Positions 43,908 to 51,714 of a stretch of 64,000 nt of DNA are shown here, one piece after another. The notes below the pieces were generated by a model. The model was not told the origin of the DNA, did no database searches, and worked only from the letters and a program-made list of their open reading frames with translations. Made by a program: the position numbers and the translations under genes. This stretch comes from Planctomycetaceae bacterium (GTDB lineage: Bacteria > Planctomycetota > Planctomycetia > Planctomycetales > Planctomycetaceae): assembly GCA_021732785.1 (NCBI GenBank), contig JAKFUG010000022.1, positions 124,001 through 188,000 on the forward strand. The letters are read 5' to 3'. The stretch's first letter is position 1, and the number at the start of each line of letters is the position of its first letter.

Positions 43908-43973
43908 GTGAGCGGCAAGGCGCTAGCCGCCGGTTTCCTCCGAAGAACCGGCGGCTAGCGCCTTGCCGCTCAC
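43908..43973. repeat. Perfect 28-base inverted repeat (family L)
   Basis: Arms 43908-43935 and 43946-43973 are exact reverse complements (begin GTGAGCGGCAAGGCGCTAGC), with a 10-base loop. It has no T-tract and does not resemble the terminators elsewhere in the window. Confidence 0.93.
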
Positions 43974-44067
43974 TGCGATCATGTGTCAATATGGCGAATC
44001 ATTCCGCGTCCGTTTATGCTGCGTTCACATTGAATCACCCCGGAATCATCACCTCAAGGATTGTGTC

Positions 44068-45279
44068 ATGGTGCGTTGGATTTTGTTGAGCTTGTTGACC
44101 TTGAACGCCGCAACGGCGCTGACCGCGGAGACGAAGTGGAAGCGGATTCAAATTGACGGCGTCTTTCGTGCGGAAGGCGTGGCCGCGGGCGACTTCAACA
44201 AAGATGGGCAGATGGATGTCGCCGCGGGGGATTACTGGTTCGCCGCGCCGGACTGGAAGCGGCACGAAATTCGCCAGCCGCTCGATCGCATGGCGAAGCC
44301 GACCGAAGGGTATGACGGCACCACGGGCTACAGCAACACCTTCGCCAGTTGGGCCTACGATGTGAACGGCGACGGCTGGACCGACGTCATCAACATCGGG
44401 TACCCCGGGGCACCGTGTTATTGGTACGAGAACCCCAAGAACGCGGACGGTCTGTGGAAGCAGACCGAAATCTGGCACAGCGCCTGCAACGAAACACCCC
44501 TGTTCACGGATGTGACCGGCGACGGGAAGCCGGAACTCATCATGGGTTCGCAACCCGAACGGCAACTCGGGTATCTGTCCGTCCCGCCGGTTGAAAAGTG
44601 TTATGAAAAATGGAAGTTCGTCCCCATCAACGAAGCGGGCGAACCGAACCAGAACGGCACATTCATGTACTACCACGGCCTCGGCACTGGCGATGTCAAC
44701 CAGGACGGCCGCCTTGATGTCATCATCCCGCACGGTTGGTACGAAGCCCCGGAAAAACGCGACGCCGGTTTGTGGGCGTTTCATCCGTTGATGCTGAGCG
44801 AGAACAACGACGGCAAAGTGCTGCCGGCATCAAACATCCATGTCCTCGATCTCGATCTCGATGGCGATCAGGACATTGTAATGAGTTCGGCGCACGCCTT
44901 TGGCATCTGGTGGTTCGAGAATCCGGGGCTGAATACCACCGAGCCGTTTAAGTACCATCTGATCGACAAGTCGTTTTCGCAGACCCATGCGCTGGCGCTG
45001 GTCGATCTCGCCGGGGATGGCAAGCTGAGTTTCGTCACCGGCAAACGCTACTTCGCCCACCAGGGTTCCGATCCCGGCGGACGCGATCCCGTGGTGATGT
45101 ACCAGATCGGTTTTCAACGGGGAAAAGGCCAGCCGCCCAAGTTCGATCTGCAGGAAATTATCGCGGGGAAAGACACCGGCGTTGGTACCCAGTTCGAGAT
45201 GATCGACTTCAACAAAGATGGGAAGCTCGACATCGTGCTGTCGAACAAAAAGGGTGTGAATGTGCTGATTCAAGAATAG
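44068..45279 (+). CDS. Secreted FG-GAP/VCBS repeat protein
   Basis: 403 residues from ATG 44068 (AAGGA seven bases upstream) with a signal peptide (MVRWILLSLLTLNAATALTA). The mature part is a beta-propeller with calcium-binding DxNxDGxxD loops: DFNKDGQMDV, DVNGDGWTDV, DVTGDGKPEL, DVNQDGRLDV, DLDLDGDQDI and DFNKDGKLDI. About seven blades can be counted. Integrin-like propellers of this kind are common extracellular modules in planctomycetes; a binding function is inferred, and no catalytic motif was seen. Confidence 0.9.
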   Translation: MVRWILLSLLTLNAATALTAETKWKRIQIDGVFRAEGVAAGDFNKDGQMDVAAGDYWFAAPDWKRHEIRQPLDRMAKPTEGYDGTTGYSNTFASWAYDVNGDGWTDVINIGYPGAPCYWYENPKNADGLWKQTEIWHSACNETPLFTDVTGDGKPELIMGSQPERQLGYLSVPPVEKCYEKWKFVPINEAGEPNQNGTFMYYHGLGTGDVNQDGRLDVIIPHGWYEAPEKRDAGLWAFHPLMLSENNDGKVLPASNIHVLDLDLDGDQDIVMSSAHAFGIWWFENPGLNTTEPFKYHLIDKSFSQTHALALVDLAGDGKLSFVTGKRYFAHQGSDPGGRDPVVMYQIGFQRGKGQPPKFDLQEIIAGKDTGVGTQFEMIDFNKDGKLDIVLSNKKGVNVLIQE

Positions 45280-45359: not shown

Positions 45360-46109
45360 CTACTTCTTCAACAATTCCAGCGCCGCGCGCGCTACATTCG
45401 CCACTTCGACATCATCATCACTCAATGCCATCGTCAGCGCTTCGACGATGTTGAGCGATGTCATCCCAATGCGTCCCAGTGCCAGTGCGGCTTGCTCGCG
45501 GACGACGGGCTCTTCGTCATCGAGCGCCGTAATTAACGTGGTGACCTGCAGCGTCGCCTCCGCTCCCAGCGACGCCAGCGCCGTCGCGGCAGCTTCGCGC
45601 ACCTCGCCGTGGTCATCGCCGAGCCATCTGCCGAGCAGCGGGGCGGTGACATCGACGTGCGCAGTCAACGGGGCAATCAACTTTGCCAGTCGGGCGATCG
45701 TGAGCGGTTCGAGATCGTCGCGGTGGGCTAATTCCAACAGCGTGGACGCCGCTGCGGCATGCCCCGATTGGAAATGAATCAACGTTGCCGCCGCTTCGAG
45801 TTGCACGTCGGGATCTTCGGCCGTGAGCAATTTGACGGCGTGCGCTTTCACGGTCACGGCGTGATCGCCGGTCGCATCGACATCCGGTGACTGCCACCAT
45901 CTCAACGCCGCGGCTTGCAGTTCCGCCGTGGGATCGGTCAACAGTTCGACGGTCACCGGCGCGACTTTGTCCGCCGGGCCGAGTTGGGTCAGCGCAAGGA
46001 ACGCCTGATAGCGCTGTTCGATGGCCGTTGCAAACCGTAATTGCCGCAGCCAGTCGTCCCACGACCGCTCCGCATACCACTTCACCGGAATTGAACGCCC
46101 CGCCATCAT
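45360..46109 (-). CDS. HEAT-repeat protein
   Basis: About 249 residues; two successive ATGs (46109 and 46106) follow a GGGGGT ribosome site. The protein is a stack of HEAT/PBS-lyase-like helical repeats: DDHGEVREAAATALASLGAE, DEEPVVREQAALALGRIGMT and SDDDVEVANVARAALELLKK at the C-terminus, with less regular repeats before. No signal peptide. A scaffold or phycobilin-lyase-like repeat protein without identifiable activity. Same strand as the SDR gene, whose stop is 46 bases upstream. Confidence 0.88.
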   Translation of the reverse strand: MMAGRSIPVKWYAERSWDDWLRQLRFATAIEQRYQAFLALTQLGPADKVAPVTVELLTDPTAELQAAALRWWQSPDVDATGDHAVTVKAHAVKLLTAEDPDVQLEAAATLIHFQSGHAAAASTLLELAHRDDLEPLTIARLAKLIAPLTAHVDVTAPLLGRWLGDDHGEVREAAATALASLGAEATLQVTTLITALDDEEPVVREQAALALGRIGMTSLNIVEALTMALSDDDVEVANVARAALELLKK

Positions 46110-46154
46110 CACCCCCGAAAGCCCAGTGATTCCGATCCCTGGGTCTCTTCAATT

Positions 46155-47181: not shown

Positions 47182-48303
47182 ATGTTACAACCGTCGCGTT
47201 GGTCCTCCCTGCTGTGCCTGACCGTTTTCGCCCTTGGCTGTGCTTCCGAAATTCCGAAAGAAGTGGCGAAATCTTCGGACGGTCCAACCGCTGCGGGGAC
47301 CACCGGCGGGAAAGCGACCAAGCGGATCATCGTTCTCACCAACGGCAACTCGCCTTACTGGGATGCCTGCCGGGCGGGGGTGCAGGATGCGAATACGCAG
47401 TTGAAACTCGCGGACGCCGGACTCGTCGCGGAGATGGAAGTCAACGACGGCACGCCGCAGGGGCAGATCGACAAGCTGCGTCAATACGGCAGCCAGAGCG
47501 ATATCGCCGGTGTCGGTGTTTCGGCGATCGACGCCAGCAACGCCGCGGTCGCCGACGAACTGCGCGCTCTCCGAAAGAAGGGAATTGCGGTCATCACCAT
47601 CGATTCCGATCTCGATCGCGAAAAATTTCGGGATGCCCGGTCCGCCTTTGTGGGAACCGATAACCTCGCCGGGGGGAAAGTCCTCGGAATGTGTGCCGCG
47701 GCTTTGAAACCGGACGGCGGCGAATACGTCACGTTTGTCGGCCGGACGGGGGCGCAGAACGCGATTGAACGGATCGGCGGCTTCGGCGAAGGTGCCGGGG
47801 CGAAGTACACGGCGAAAGATTCGATGGGCGATGATCTCGACCGGACGCGGGCCAAGGACAACGTCCGCAACGCCATCGGCAACCACCCGAATCTCAACAC
47901 GCTGGTCGGCATCTGGTCGTACAACGCCCCGGCGATTGTGGATGTCGTCCGCGAACTGAAAGCCCGCGAGAAATACAGCATCGTCGTCTTCGATGCCGAG
48001 CCGAGCACCATCCAGGCGATGGCCGATGGCGACGTCGATGTGATGGTCGTGCAGGATCCGTATCGTATGGGCTTCGATGGCGTGAAATTGCTCAAGGCGA
48101 TTATTGAAAATGACGACCACACGCAGAACACGCTGATTTGGGAATTCGTCAAAGGCATGGACATTCTCGACACGGGGCTCAAGGTCGTGGTGCCCAACGA
48201 TGCGTCACCGGTGATGAAGCAGTCGCTGGGTGAGAAGGTCAAGGTCCTCACGCTTTCCGATTTCAAAGCGTGGCTGGAAAAATACGGCCTTGCCGGTTCC
48301 TGA
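47182..48303 (+). CDS. Sugar ABC transporter substrate-binding lipoprotein (CUT2 type)
   Basis: 373 residues from ATG 47182. A lipoprotein signal ends FALGCASE with Cys16 or so as the anchor. The mature part is a type I periplasmic-binding fold of the RbsB group: IIVLTNGNSPYWDACRAGVQ, then DGTPQGQIDKLRQYGSQSDI, FVGTDNLAGGKVLG and IVVFDAEPSTIQAMADGDVD. It should deliver a monosaccharide to the permease and ATPase encoded next. A family-F repeat follows the stop. Confidence 0.93.
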   Translation: MLQPSRWSSLLCLTVFALGCASEIPKEVAKSSDGPTAAGTTGGKATKRIIVLTNGNSPYWDACRAGVQDANTQLKLADAGLVAEMEVNDGTPQGQIDKLRQYGSQSDIAGVGVSAIDASNAAVADELRALRKKGIAVITIDSDLDREKFRDARSAFVGTDNLAGGKVLGMCAAALKPDGGEYVTFVGRTGAQNAIERIGGFGEGAGAKYTAKDSMGDDLDRTRAKDNVRNAIGNHPNLNTLVGIWSYNAPAIVDVVRELKAREKYSIVVFDAEPSTIQAMADGDVDVMVVQDPYRMGFDGVKLLKAIIENDDHTQNTLIWEFVKGMDILDTGLKVVVPNDASPVMKQSLGEKVKVLTLSDFKAWLEKYGLAGS

Positions 48304-48307
48304 AACT

Positions 48308-48429
48308 CGTTCCCACGCTCTGCGTGGGAACGCACGGCCGCGACGCTCTGCGTCGCCTGACACAACACGACGTACAAAGACGACGCGGAGCGTCGAAAAC
48401 CCGGCGTTCCCACGCAGAGCATGGGAACG
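48308..48429. repeat. REPIN-like doublet, family F (GTTCCCACGCTCTGCGTGGG)
   Basis: Hairpin units at 48308-48333 and 48404-48429 in inverted orientation, each a palindrome of GTTCCCACGC / GCGTGGGAAC. Inside lie second-order hairpins CGACGCTCTGCGTCG and CGACGCGGAGCGTCG. A solo unit occurs at 63327-63349. It separates the binding-protein and permease genes. Confidence 0.92.
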
Positions 48430-48449
48430 AGTGAGAAAGAGAATCCGCT

Positions 48450-50060
48450 GTGTCCGCACCGTCTTTCTGGCGTCGTCATGAATTCAGCCTGTTGCTGGCG
48501 ATTCTCTGCGTCGTCATCGCCACCGCCGTCCTCGATGCCCAGCACAACTATGTGACCGATCCGGCGAACAGCGGCTGGCAATTGCTGCGGCAATGGTCCA
48601 TGCTCAGTCTCTTCGCCCTCGGCGCCGCGGTGGTGATCATTACCGGCGGGATAGATCTCTCGACGGGATCGGTGATCGCGCTGAGCGGCACCGTCTGCGC
48701 CACGATCATGCTGCTTCTCGCTCCGGAAGCGCTGACCACGCCCAACGCACCGATGCCGATGTGGGTTGCGGGAGCGGCGATCGGTGGCACCGTCTTCGTC
48801 GGTTTCCTCATCGGCAGTCTGCACGCGTGGCTGATCACCGTTGTGGGACTGCCGCCGTTTGTCGCCACGCTCGCCACGTTGGTCGGACTCCGCAGCCTCG
48901 CCCGCGCGCTGTGCGAATCGGTCACCCTCGCCGTCAACGGCGGTGTGACGACGCAGATTTATGTCGCGAACGAGCAGTTCCGTTACCTCGCGAATTCAGT
49001 GTGGATTCCCGCGGTGCTGGTCGTGGTGCTCAGCCTCGCGTTGTGGATCATGCTAAGCCGGTCGGTGCTTGGGCGGCATCTGTATGCTCTCGGTGGGAAC
49101 GAACAGGCTGCGCGACTCAGCGGCATCCAGACCGATCATCTCAAATGGGTGGCGTATTGCATCAGTGCAATCCTCAGTTCGCTCTCCGGCATTCTCTATG
49201 TCTGTGACCAGTCCGTCGCCGAACCACAAACGCTCGGGCGCGGTTATGAACTCAATTCGATTGCTGCCTCGGTCGTCGGCGGTTGTTCGCTGCAGGGTGG
49301 CGTGGGGACGGTGCAGGGAACGTTGTTCGGGGCGTTGTTTCTCCGCGTGGTGATCGATGGCGTGGCGAAGATCATCGATACCCAGGCCGATGTGTTTGAA
49401 GGATTGATCGTCGGCGTGGTCGTCGTTTTCGCGGTCACGTTCTCGCACAGTTCGGCCACGTTCTCGCATCGTCGCGGCTTATTCGCGGGCAGTCTCGGCG
49501 GGGTGACGATTCTCAACCTCACGATTCTCGCCGGAGTGCTCACCGCGCTGCTGGGAATCAAGTTCACGCAGGGCCGTTTGAACATGGATGCCCTGTGGTT
49601 GTCATCGCTGGCAATGCTCAGCACGGTGGCCTTGTTGCTCATTGCGCGACAGGGATGGTCTTCCTCCACACGACGTCGTGCTGGCATTGCGTGGGCGGTC
49701 GCAACCCTGGTGCTGGTGATTGGTCTCGATCGCGCCTATCCCGCGGTGCAGACCAATTCCGCGATCGCCGCCGTGCAACGTCTGGGCGGCCGCGTCATTC
49801 AGAACGAGAACGGCATCGTGGTCGATCTCACCGACACGAGGATCGATGACGACGCTTTCCGTCAGATCACCGGGAAGCTCGATCATCTCCGTCCGCTCGG
49901 CGAATTGCGGCTCGCCAACACCGCGGTGACCGATCGCACGTTGCGGGCGTTGTCGAAGTTCAAAACGCTCAAAGCGGTTCATGTCCAGGGGACGAAGGTC
50001 ACCTCCGGCGGTGTTGTCGGCTTGAAACGAGCATTATCCGAAGCCGTGGTAACCGAATGA
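48450..50060 (+). CDS. Sugar ABC transporter permease (RbsC-like) with C-terminal leucine-rich-repeat extension
   Basis: 536 residues from a GTG at 48450, against about 320 for E. coli RbsC. The N-terminal part is a normal CUT2 permease: VIITGGIDLSTGSVIALSGT, LGRHLYALGGNEQAARLSGI and GRGYELNSIAASVVGGCSLQ. Beyond about residue 330 come additional hydrophobic helices (VTILNLTILAGVLTALLGI; AIAWAVATLVLVIGLDR-type segment) and then a soluble tail (about 440-536) of leucine-rich repeats: VDLTDTRIDDDAFRQITG, LGELRLANTAVTDRTLRALS, LKAVHVQGTKVTSGGVVGL. The LRR style is that common in planctomycetes. The tail is probably periplasmic, though topology is uncertain. Confidence 0.92.
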   Translation: MSAPSFWRRHEFSLLLAILCVVIATAVLDAQHNYVTDPANSGWQLLRQWSMLSLFALGAAVVIITGGIDLSTGSVIALSGTVCATIMLLLAPEALTTPNAPMPMWVAGAAIGGTVFVGFLIGSLHAWLITVVGLPPFVATLATLVGLRSLARALCESVTLAVNGGVTTQIYVANEQFRYLANSVWIPAVLVVVLSLALWIMLSRSVLGRHLYALGGNEQAARLSGIQTDHLKWVAYCISAILSSLSGILYVCDQSVAEPQTLGRGYELNSIAASVVGGCSLQGGVGTVQGTLFGALFLRVVIDGVAKIIDTQADVFEGLIVGVVVVFAVTFSHSSATFSHRRGLFAGSLGGVTILNLTILAGVLTALLGIKFTQGRLNMDALWLSSLAMLSTVALLLIARQGWSSSTRRRAGIAWAVATLVLVIGLDRAYPAVQTNSAIAAVQRLGGRVIQNENGIVVDLTDTRIDDDAFRQITGKLDHLRPLGELRLANTAVTDRTLRALSKFKTLKAVHVQGTKVTSGGVVGLKRALSEAVVTE

Positions 50061-50089
50061 TGGCACAGGGCGCATCGTTAACGATGTTG

Positions 50090-50176
50090 TGTGCCACTGG
50101 CTCTGCCAGTGTCTTCTTCATCGATGTCATCGTCGCAGCCAACGAATATCAAGACACTGGCAGAGCCAGTGGCACA
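50090..50176. repeat. REPIN-like doublet, family B, intergenic copy
   Basis: Arms 50090-50115 (begins TGTGCCACTGGCTCTGCCAG) and 50151-50176 are perfect inverted copies over 26 bases. Same family as the in-gene element at 29840-29925. Lies between the permease and ATPase genes. Confidence 0.95.
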
Positions 50177-50199
50177 CGGCCAACACGAGTGGTTCGCAG

Positions 50200-51714
50200 A
50201 TGACTGATCTCGCGCGAATTCAGTTCTCCCACGTGACGAAGCGCTTCTTTGCCGTCACCGCGCTGGATGACGTCTCGTTCGATGTCCGCCCCGGTGAGTT
50301 GCTCGCGCTGTGCGGCGAAAACGGTGCCGGTAAAAGCACGCTGATGAAAATCCTGTCGGGGGTCATCGCCGACTATGAGGGCACCATCGAACTCGATGGC
50401 CAACCCGTCCGCTTCACCGGCACGCGCGACGCCGAGCGACAGGGCGTCAGTATTATTCATCAGGAACTGAACCTCGTTGGCGACCTTTCGGCAGCCGCGA
50501 ACATTTTTCTCGGACGAGAACTCACTCGGTACGGCGTCTGGCTCGATGAAGCGGCGATGCGCACCCAGGCCGCGGAGTTGTTCGCACAGTTGGATTGCTC
50601 AATTCGACCAGACGATTTGATCCGGACCTTACGGATCGGCGATCAGCAACTCGTCGAAATCGCGAAAGCGCTGGCATTGCAGGCCCGCATTCTCATCATG
50701 GACGAGCCGACGAGTGCGCTCACGGAAAGCGAAGTCGCGCGGCTGTACCGGATCATTGCCAAGTTGCGCGAGCGCGGCGTCACGATCATCTACATCTCGC
50801 ACAAAATGGACGAGGTTTTCCGTCTGGCGGATCGCATCACCGTCCTGCGTGACGGCAAGGTGATTCAGACGCTGGACCGCATGACGACCTCGCCGAAGGA
50901 CATCACGCGGCTGATGGTCGGCCGCGACATCAACACCGCCGGGTTTCGCACACCGCAACCGGTGGGTGACGAAGTCCTGCACGTTGAAAATCTGTCGCTG
51001 CCGTGGCCGGGGCATGCCCGCGGCTGGCGATTGCAGAAGGTGTCGCTCAAAGTTCATCGCGGCGAAGTCCTTGGCATCGCCGGGTTGATGGGAGCCGGGC
51101 GGACGGAACTGCTCGAATGTTTGTACGGCAGCAGTGCCGACGAGCCGCAGGGCGAAATCAAGCTACGCGGTGAACCGGTGACGTTCGCCGATCCGCAAGC
51201 CGCCCTGCAAGCCGGGGTGGCGATGGTCACCGAGGATCGCAAGCGCTACGGCGTGATTGCGACGATGAATGTCCGCGAACATATCACGCTGTCGAGCCTG
51301 GACAAATCCGCGATCGCCGGGCTGATTCAATTCGGTCGCGAGGCCGACGCCGGGCACGAGTCGATCCGGCAACTCCGCATTAAAACGGCCGGAGGCGAAG
51401 CCGCGATCAACTCCCTCAGCGGCGGTAATCAGCAGAAGAGCCTCATCGCCCGCGCATTGCGAACGAACCCCGCGCTCCTCTTGCTCGATGATCCCACGCG
51501 CGGCATCGATGTTGGTGCGAAGGCGGAGATTTATCGGCTCATCGACGAACTCTGTCAGCAGGGACTCGCGATCATCATCACGTCGAGCGAATTGCCGGAA
51601 TTGCTCACCGTGTGCGATCGCATCGTCGTCCTGTGTGAAGGCCGCATGACGGGTGAATTTCAGCGCGAAGAGTTTTCCGAAGCGGCGCTGATGGAAGCCG
51701 CGACAGGAAATTAG
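50200..51714 (+). CDS. Sugar ABC transporter ATP-binding protein (RbsA-like, duplicated ATPase)
   Basis: 504 residues from ATG 50200; the frame upstream is repeat DNA. Two ATPase halves. First: Walker A CGENGAGKST, signature replaced by RIGDQQLVEIAKAL, Walker B ILIMDEPTSALTESE. Second: a degenerate Walker A GLMGAGRTE, NSLSGGNQQKSLIARAL and LLLLDDPTRGIDVGAKAE. This asymmetry is normal for CUT2 ATPases. Together with the two upstream genes it completes a monosaccharide importer; the repeats between the three genes do not break co-orientation. Confidence 0.94.
   Translation: MTDLARIQFSHVTKRFFAVTALDDVSFDVRPGELLALCGENGAGKSTLMKILSGVIADYEGTIELDGQPVRFTGTRDAERQGVSIIHQELNLVGDLSAAANIFLGRELTRYGVWLDEAAMRTQAAELFAQLDCSIRPDDLIRTLRIGDQQLVEIAKALALQARILIMDEPTSALTESEVARLYRIIAKLRERGVTIIYISHKMDEVFRLADRITVLRDGKVIQTLDRMTTSPKDITRLMVGRDINTAGFRTPQPVGDEVLHVENLSLPWPGHARGWRLQKVSLKVHRGEVLGIAGLMGAGRTELLECLYGSSADEPQGEIKLRGEPVTFADPQAALQAGVAMVTEDRKRYGVIATMNVREHITLSSLDKSAIAGLIQFGREADAGHESIRQLRIKTAGGEAAINSLSGGNQQKSLIARALRTNPALLLLDDPTRGIDVGAKAEIYRLIDELCQQGLAIIITSSELPELLTVCDRIVVLCEGRMTGEFQREEFSEAALMEAATGN

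Follow-up and report, generated by a model that had tools for sequence, protein, structure and literature searches.

An importer operon with a permease-LRR fusion

The window, by which we mean the whole stretch of 64,000 nucleotides analysed here (Planctomycetaceae bacterium, contig JAKFUG010000022.1), carries an ABC importer operon encoded entirely on the forward strand. Its first gene (47182..48303, +) encodes a substrate-binding protein (SBP) of 373 aa with a Peripla_BP_4 domain (PF13407, E 2.1e-37, in a Pfam scan begun at residue 2) and a lipobox (FALGC, identified by eye), which marks it as a lipoprotein. Next comes the gene studied here (48450..50060, +), an open reading frame with a GTG start and zero internal stops that specifies a single chain of 536 residues, followed by an ABC ATPase of the RbsA/XylG type (50200..51714, +; 504 aa) in which Pfam finds two ABC_tran domains on one chain. 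The top NCBIfam match of the ATPase, PRK13549, scores 592.5 bits, below the cut-off of 699.

Paired palindromes, which we take to be REP-like, occupy both gaps flanking the permease gene (window 48305-48432 and 50089-50177), with arms of 29 nt (97% complementary) and 38 nt (87% complementary); their two cores occur in 44 and 267 copies across the genome at up to one mismatch, against 0 for reversed controls. Upstream of the operon lies a gene for a HEAT-like repeat protein (45360-46112, −; a by-eye reading of the translation), which has an FG-GAP protein gene (43963-45279, +) and a short-chain dehydrogenase gene on the reverse strand as neighbours.

The permease core

BPD_transp_2 is the sole Pfam match in the 536-residue protein (residues 45-328, window 48582..49433, +; E 1.4e-35; 123.2 bits against a cut-off of 26.8). 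The modelled core (residues 1-336) superposed on BtuC (1l7v_A; Z 17.4, rmsd 5.2 Å over 289 residues) and HmuU (4g1u_A; Z 17.4) in VIA-align, which compares only the top chains returned by Foldseek. With the whole two-domain model as query, Foldseek gave zero matches at E ≤ 0.001, its top rows including both type II importers and LRR proteins, and phmmer with the whole single sequence against PDB chains returned nothing at E ≤ 0.01. From its domain, its modelled fold and its partner genes, the protein is a CUT2, or RbsC-type, subunit of a type II ABC importer: the neighbouring genes encode a single-chain ATPase with two nucleotide-binding domains (NBDs) and a Peripla_BP_4 SBP, and these partners also occur in related genomes. 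Twelve NCBIfam models matched the permease, all below their cut-offs (best GguB, 161.5 bits against 450), and since the equivalog cut-offs of the named sugar permeases (ribose, allose, galactose, GguB and others) were not reached, the transported sugar is left without assignment.

Three further helices and a short leucine-rich-repeat domain

CUT2 permeases usually end near residue 330. Past residue ~340 of the window protein, hydropathy indicated three more hydrophobic helices, placed at residues 347-373, 381-400 and 405-444 in an AlphaFold2 model of the fusion built from 59 aligned sequences (mean pLDDT 91.4, pTM 0.84; the alignments used for structure models held 59 and 41 of 67 locus proteins, plus the window protein). 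The first two, TM11 and TM12, cover residues 347-400 (window 49488..49649, +). The third, TM13, is predicted to be long and, with its helical extension (residues 405-444, window 49662..49781, +), to run directly into a leucine-rich-repeat (LRR) domain at residues 445-536 (49782..50057, +), modelled as beta-alpha units with strands at 455-459, 483-487, 509-511 and 533-535. The modelled tail (residues 440-536) superposed on LRR structures, best on 4xa9_G (Z 11.0, 88 residues, 2.0 Å).

Pfam alone would have missed this domain. On the window tail LRR_6 reached 13.6 bits, below its gathering score of 23.4, and the last 201 residues by themselves gave no match at E ≤ 10, so that a routine domain search overlooks the LRR. 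A profile of ten orthologous tails searched against PDB chains recovered LRR proteins, among them 4r5d (E 9.5e-16) and ribonuclease inhibitor (1dfj; E 3.5e-12). From these profile matches and the modelled solenoid fold, the tail, ~90 residues long, is a short LRR. The preliminary description of this locus, which had read a CUT2 permease continuing into extra helices and an LRR tail, is thereby upheld, as is its remark that no standard family has this layout, none being found in Pfam or NCBIfam. The domain search it proposed succeeded for BPD_transp_2; for the LRR it failed with Pfam and succeeded with the tail profile.

Conserved tail positions among 22 sequences include P431, Q434, A438, G446, G447, D459, E485, T491, D495 and R527. 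The best-conserved columns look largely structural, and few of them could form a binding face. Few parts of the protein change faster than the LRR, whose mean majority-residue frequency is 0.59 against 0.81 in the core.

The fusion is real and under constraint

Orthologues (E ≤ 1e-70) were present in 75 of 170 genomes of the family, and in 22 of the 170, the window's own included, the alignment extended to query residue 503 or beyond, which was our definition of the fused form. Each of the 22 encodes the fusion in one open frame without stops, down to 52% identity with the window protein. In the remaining 53 orthologue-bearing genomes the alignment ended at residue 409 or before, three of them (G018, G102, G126) stopping early owing to a contig end. 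The fused set consisted of the three genomes listed for the window's genus, the 15 listed for group g66 (G151-G165, without a gap) and G003, G022, G093 and G106. We infer that g66 is Schlesneria, since Schlesneria loci share their match figures with g66 loci.

Nei-Gojobori estimates for 12 pairs, one of which was saturated for core and LRR, gave dN/dS of 0.007-0.065 for the core, 0.075-0.279 for TM11-13 and 0.063-0.26 for the LRR. These values are rough, several dS exceeding 1 and the pairs sharing genomes and so not being independent; the LRR value lay above that of the core in all 11 usable pairs. To judge from these substitution patterns, the LRR tail is under purifying selection, more weakly than the core.

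The same data bear on the possibility that a frameshift, a missed stop or two genes annotated as one had produced the fusion. The preliminary description had named a break near residue 330-440, or orthologues encoded as two genes, as grounds for abandoning it. Neither was found: 22 genomes carry one stop-free frame each across this region, and dN/dS is below 1 before the junction and after it, which rules the artefact out and leaves it a negligible probability. A tail HMM run on the 75 LRR-less loci, with at least 800 bases of downstream DNA at 73 of them and at least 3000 at 45, detected no LRR frame at 74; the exception, L071, has a 583-residue LRR frame ~2.4 kb downstream of the permease that is a distant match to the HMM.

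A history in two steps

Orthologues fall into size classes. Among 112 distinct rows, 12 were short (~320-350 residues), 75 two-helix (~390-425), 22 fused (530-557) and 3 cut by contig ends; the length outliers were L133, a short-class protein lengthened by an insert, and L092, a two-helix protein of 462 residues. The model of one LRR-less orthologue (L063, pLDDT 91.9) placed TM11 and TM12 as in the fusion, after which the chain ends. In a sample of 397 genomes of the class (threshold 1e-60, three candidates scored per genome), 106 matched, 49 of them outside the window's family. Of these 49, 44 aligned to query residue 362 or beyond and none past residue 445; 19 family genomes in the same sample reached residue 503 or beyond. 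From this sampling, the two extra helices appear widespread in the planctomycete class, and TM13 with the LRR appears only in Schlesneria and its relatives. The extension therefore arose in two steps, first two helices and then one helix with the LRR. The preliminary description had proposed to look for the layout in other planctomycetes and for its absence from outgroups; its treatment of helices and LRR as one addition survives in that the extension is real, and fails as a single event, TM11 and TM12 being widespread in orthologues that lack the LRR.

How often the second step occurred was addressed with trees that omitted two fragments (L097, L125); L006, L048 and L100, which contig ends cut short, were retained without being counted as fused. 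A tree of the core alone united 20 of the 22 fused rows in one clade (SH-aLRT 97), L118 and L047 branched nearby without resolution, and the fused label needed three changes; in a 38-row tree, 18 of 20 fused rows formed one clade (99/97) and two changes were needed. None of 200 bootstrap trees of the 38-row set placed all 20 fused rows on one side of a branch, and an AU test on the same 38 of the 112 rows did not reject a single fused clade (p 0.336). One gain of TM13 and the LRR would be the simplest reading. Two of the cut rows, L006 and L048, adjoin the fused clade, and either form is possible for them; L094, whose locus abuts the end of a contig, groups with the two-helix rows although its form is short.

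Long frames of outside-family genomes were checked in eleven regions for other fusions at the same place. Those of G404, G370, G429, G350, G358, G314 and G223 proved to hold an ordinary permease of ~390-440 residues, and most such frames extend upstream of the permease start. A frame of 917 residues in G404 was not borne out as a fusion: the permease stops and the ATPase then follows in the same frame. The regions of G310, G378, G360 and G285, where the long frames contain TGA, were left out of this check; that of G360 has the longest alignment (to residue 445). Other endings were seen among two-helix orthologues. L066 (identical to L147; family f19) has an extra hydrophobic segment at its very end and no LRR, and L092 ends in a low-complexity tail of ~50 residues rich in Ser, Gly and acidic residues in place of the LRR.

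Origin of the LRR module

Planctomycete LRR proteins are numerous and for the most part unexplained. A profile built from 18 sequences of TM13 and the tail found LRR matches at 1e-6 in the genomes of 22 of 25 relatives. One of them, L155 (151 aa, from the same class), has a hydrophobic start, an AIAATIEKLGGKV cap and LRRs; another, L135 (220 aa), is encoded in the window's own genome and has a signal-peptide-like start. The matches of L135 and L155 begin at profile positions 10 and 13, within the hydrophobic segment, and both exceed Pfam LRR cut-offs, while L138 and L139 fall below them. A crude hydropathy test, applied to frames taken from the best matches, showed a hydrophobic export segment before the LRR in 17 of 24 relatives and none in the other seven, one of which (L137) has a lipobox. 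TM13 and the LRR thus have the look of a small planctomycete LRR protein, anchored or exported, that was appended to a permease. LRR modules occur in other combinations as well: L165, a planctomycete frame of 711 residues, matches the tail profile and also bears WD40 repeats.

This abundance is one reason why we treat as a serious rival, though on balance a somewhat unlikely one, the view that chance brought a TM-LRR gene onto the end of the permease, where its product folds harmlessly, with at most a structural role in stability or dimer contact and with transport independent of it. Such a passenger would also fit the fast divergence and few conserved surface residues of the LRR, and the preponderance of LRR-less orthologues (75 two-helix against 22 fused among the 112 rows). 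Against it, dN/dS of the LRR is well below 1 in all 11 usable, non-independent pairs, and every genome listed for the window's genus (three) and for g66 (15) retains the fusion.

Predicted topology

The ends of a type II core lie in the cytoplasm. Extra helices are even in number in the modelled LRR-less form (L063) and odd in the modelled fused form, so the TM11-TM12 pair would bring the chain back to the cytoplasm and TM13 would take the LRR out. Loop charges agree: in fused sequences the mean numbers of K+R and D+E are 2.8 and 0.5 before TM11, 1.1 and 1.2 in the TM11-TM12 loop, and 3.5 and 0.4 before TM13. The helical stretch after TM13, predicted to be outside, is also positive (2.1 and 0.2), less so than the loop before TM13; that charge on its own does not speak for an outside location, and the difference across TM13 does so mildly. 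Taken together, helix parity, loop charges and the AlphaFold model indicate that the LRR should lie in the periplasm. According to passages of PMC11466899, the docking site for the SBP in type II importers is the top of the membrane domains, on the extracellular side, which would put a periplasmic LRR on the docking side; the same source gives the stoichiometry RbsAC2B, with a pair of permeases in the importer. As each operon has a single permease gene, the pair would be a homodimer, with two LRRs per transporter.

Partner genes and co-variation

The SBP gene lies beside the permease in 20 of the 22 fused genomes, the window included, and was not found there in G157 and G159. The ATPase gene is less tightly linked, adjacent in 8 of the 21 loci with room for it and non-adjacent in 13. 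An ATPase 57-100% identical was nonetheless found at E ≤ 1e-110 in 21 of the 22 genomes (the match in G022 carries one in-frame TAA), the exception at this threshold being G156, a genome 89% complete. In the single-contig genome G165 it lies ~1.5 Mb from the permease. Since the ATPase is found even where unlinked, the machine is apparently kept where the operon has split. The C-terminus of the SBP (window 48240-48303, and orthologues), read by eye, nearly always ends in Ser after a stretch containing W and L; the last residue is Ser in 18 of 19 SBPs of the fused clade, 65 of 65 accompanying two-helix permeases and 4 of 6 accompanying short forms.

Partial Mantel tests across 19 genomes, with the core removed, gave r 0.31 (p 0.034) between LRR and SBP and r 0.55 (p 0.0005) between LRR and ATPase; TM11-13 gave 0.68 with the ATPase and 0.03 with the SBP. 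Six ATPases entered this run as one domain of 154-158 residues, and that of G022 as 460 residues. Co-variation of the LRR is not specific for the SBP and is stronger with the cytoplasmic ATPase, a correlation that is not specific to the LRR since it holds for TM11-13 too. The suggestion in the preliminary description that the tail is a surface or partner-binding module thus finds agreement in the predicted periplasmic placement, and none in the co-variation, which does not single out the SBP.

The tie to the ATPase could instead point to a cytoplasmic LRR whose ligand is the ATPase or some other regulator on that side of the membrane, which would also sit well with the positive stretch after TM13 and with the seven of 24 LRR relatives without an obvious export segment. 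We regard this as very improbable, because helix parity and loop charges oppose it, extra helices being even in number in the LRR-less form and odd in the fused one, and because TM11-13 share the ATPase correlation.

A putative docking arm

The fold class of the LRR, its place and its conservation lead us to a reading that we hold to be about as probable as all its competitors together: the permease serves an RbsC-like sugar importer of type II and has acquired an arm for interactions in the periplasm, the LRR being a putative protein-docking arm. The type II core has an extra helix pair, common in planctomycete orthologues, that is predicted to lead back into the cytoplasm. One more helix, found in the Schlesneria group, is predicted to take a short LRR of four predicted strands across the membrane, and TM13 with the LRR may have been a small planctomycete LRR protein, anchored or exported, whose gene became joined to that of the permease at its end. 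Two permease copies per importer would then present two LRRs on the SBP-docking side, where they could keep the importer close to a partner in the periplasm; the most plausible one is its own SBP, a lipoprotein, and failing that another envelope protein. A fuller version, which we put forward tentatively, has a widespread planctomycete TM-LRR module joined to a permease that, having added an even number of helices, ended in the cytoplasm and needed only one further crossing; the resulting recognition arms, two per transporter, would dock a specific protein, either the SBP or an envelope complex, and so gate or localise sugar uptake.

Several observations tell against a docking arm. The majority of orthologues lack the LRR and have the same kind of SBP, so that transport does not require the arm; the LRR diverges fast; and its correlation with the ATPase exceeds that with the SBP. 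A passenger role is its serious competitor. In a further alternative, the periplasmic LRR does not touch the SBP and binds the cell wall or another envelope protein, which would hold the importer at one site or close to a complex that degrades polymers. As a lipoprotein the SBP would need no tether, specificity for it is not seen in the co-variation, and many LRR relatives have export segments; no candidate partner was found next to the operons inspected, however, and we consider this alternative rather unlikely.

Comparison with known systems

To our knowledge, extracytoplasmic domains fused to the membrane subunits of ABC importers are mainly substrate-binding domains, and the titles and abstract openings listed in searches of open-access PMC report neither an LRR-fused ABC permease nor a planctomycete LRR permease. 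At that position, a conserved LRR would offer an importer another way of recruiting a partner. With RbsC/CUT2 permeases of RbsABC-type importers the window protein shares the BPD_transp_2 domain, the BtuC-like type II fold, the two-NBD single-chain ATPase and the Peripla_BP_4 SBP; it differs in its three added helices and C-terminal LRR, and in lying below the cut-offs of all 12 matching NCBIfam models. Its LRR-less planctomycete orthologues (L063, L110), 43-63% identical over the aligned part, belong to the same SBP-permease(-ATPase) family and share TM11 and TM12, but end after TM12 at ~400 residues, without TM13 and the LRR. The ordered steps that separate these forms, two helices and then a helix with an LRR, show a transporter gaining a new domain.

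In OpuA and GlnPQ, according to PMC11065425 and PMC8025302, the permease is linked to a folded domain that lies outside the membrane. An outside domain fused to the transmembrane domain (TMD) is thus a shared feature, given the predicted placement in the window permease. The domain in OpuA and GlnPQ, however, is a substrate-binding domain, whereas here the tail is an LRR and the SBP a lipoprotein encoded by a separate gene, which places the fusion outside the class of TMD-fused substrate-binding domains; OpuA is moreover of type I, and the window permease has a type II fold. The stand-alone planctomycete LRR proteins L155, L135 and L138 resemble the end of the fusion in their hydrophobic segment and T.VTD-type LRRs, and L155 and L135, though not L138, also have its A..I..LGG..V cap. 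They differ in being separate proteins, some with more repeats, that are unjoined to a transporter, and it is for such proteins that the fusion provides a testable context.
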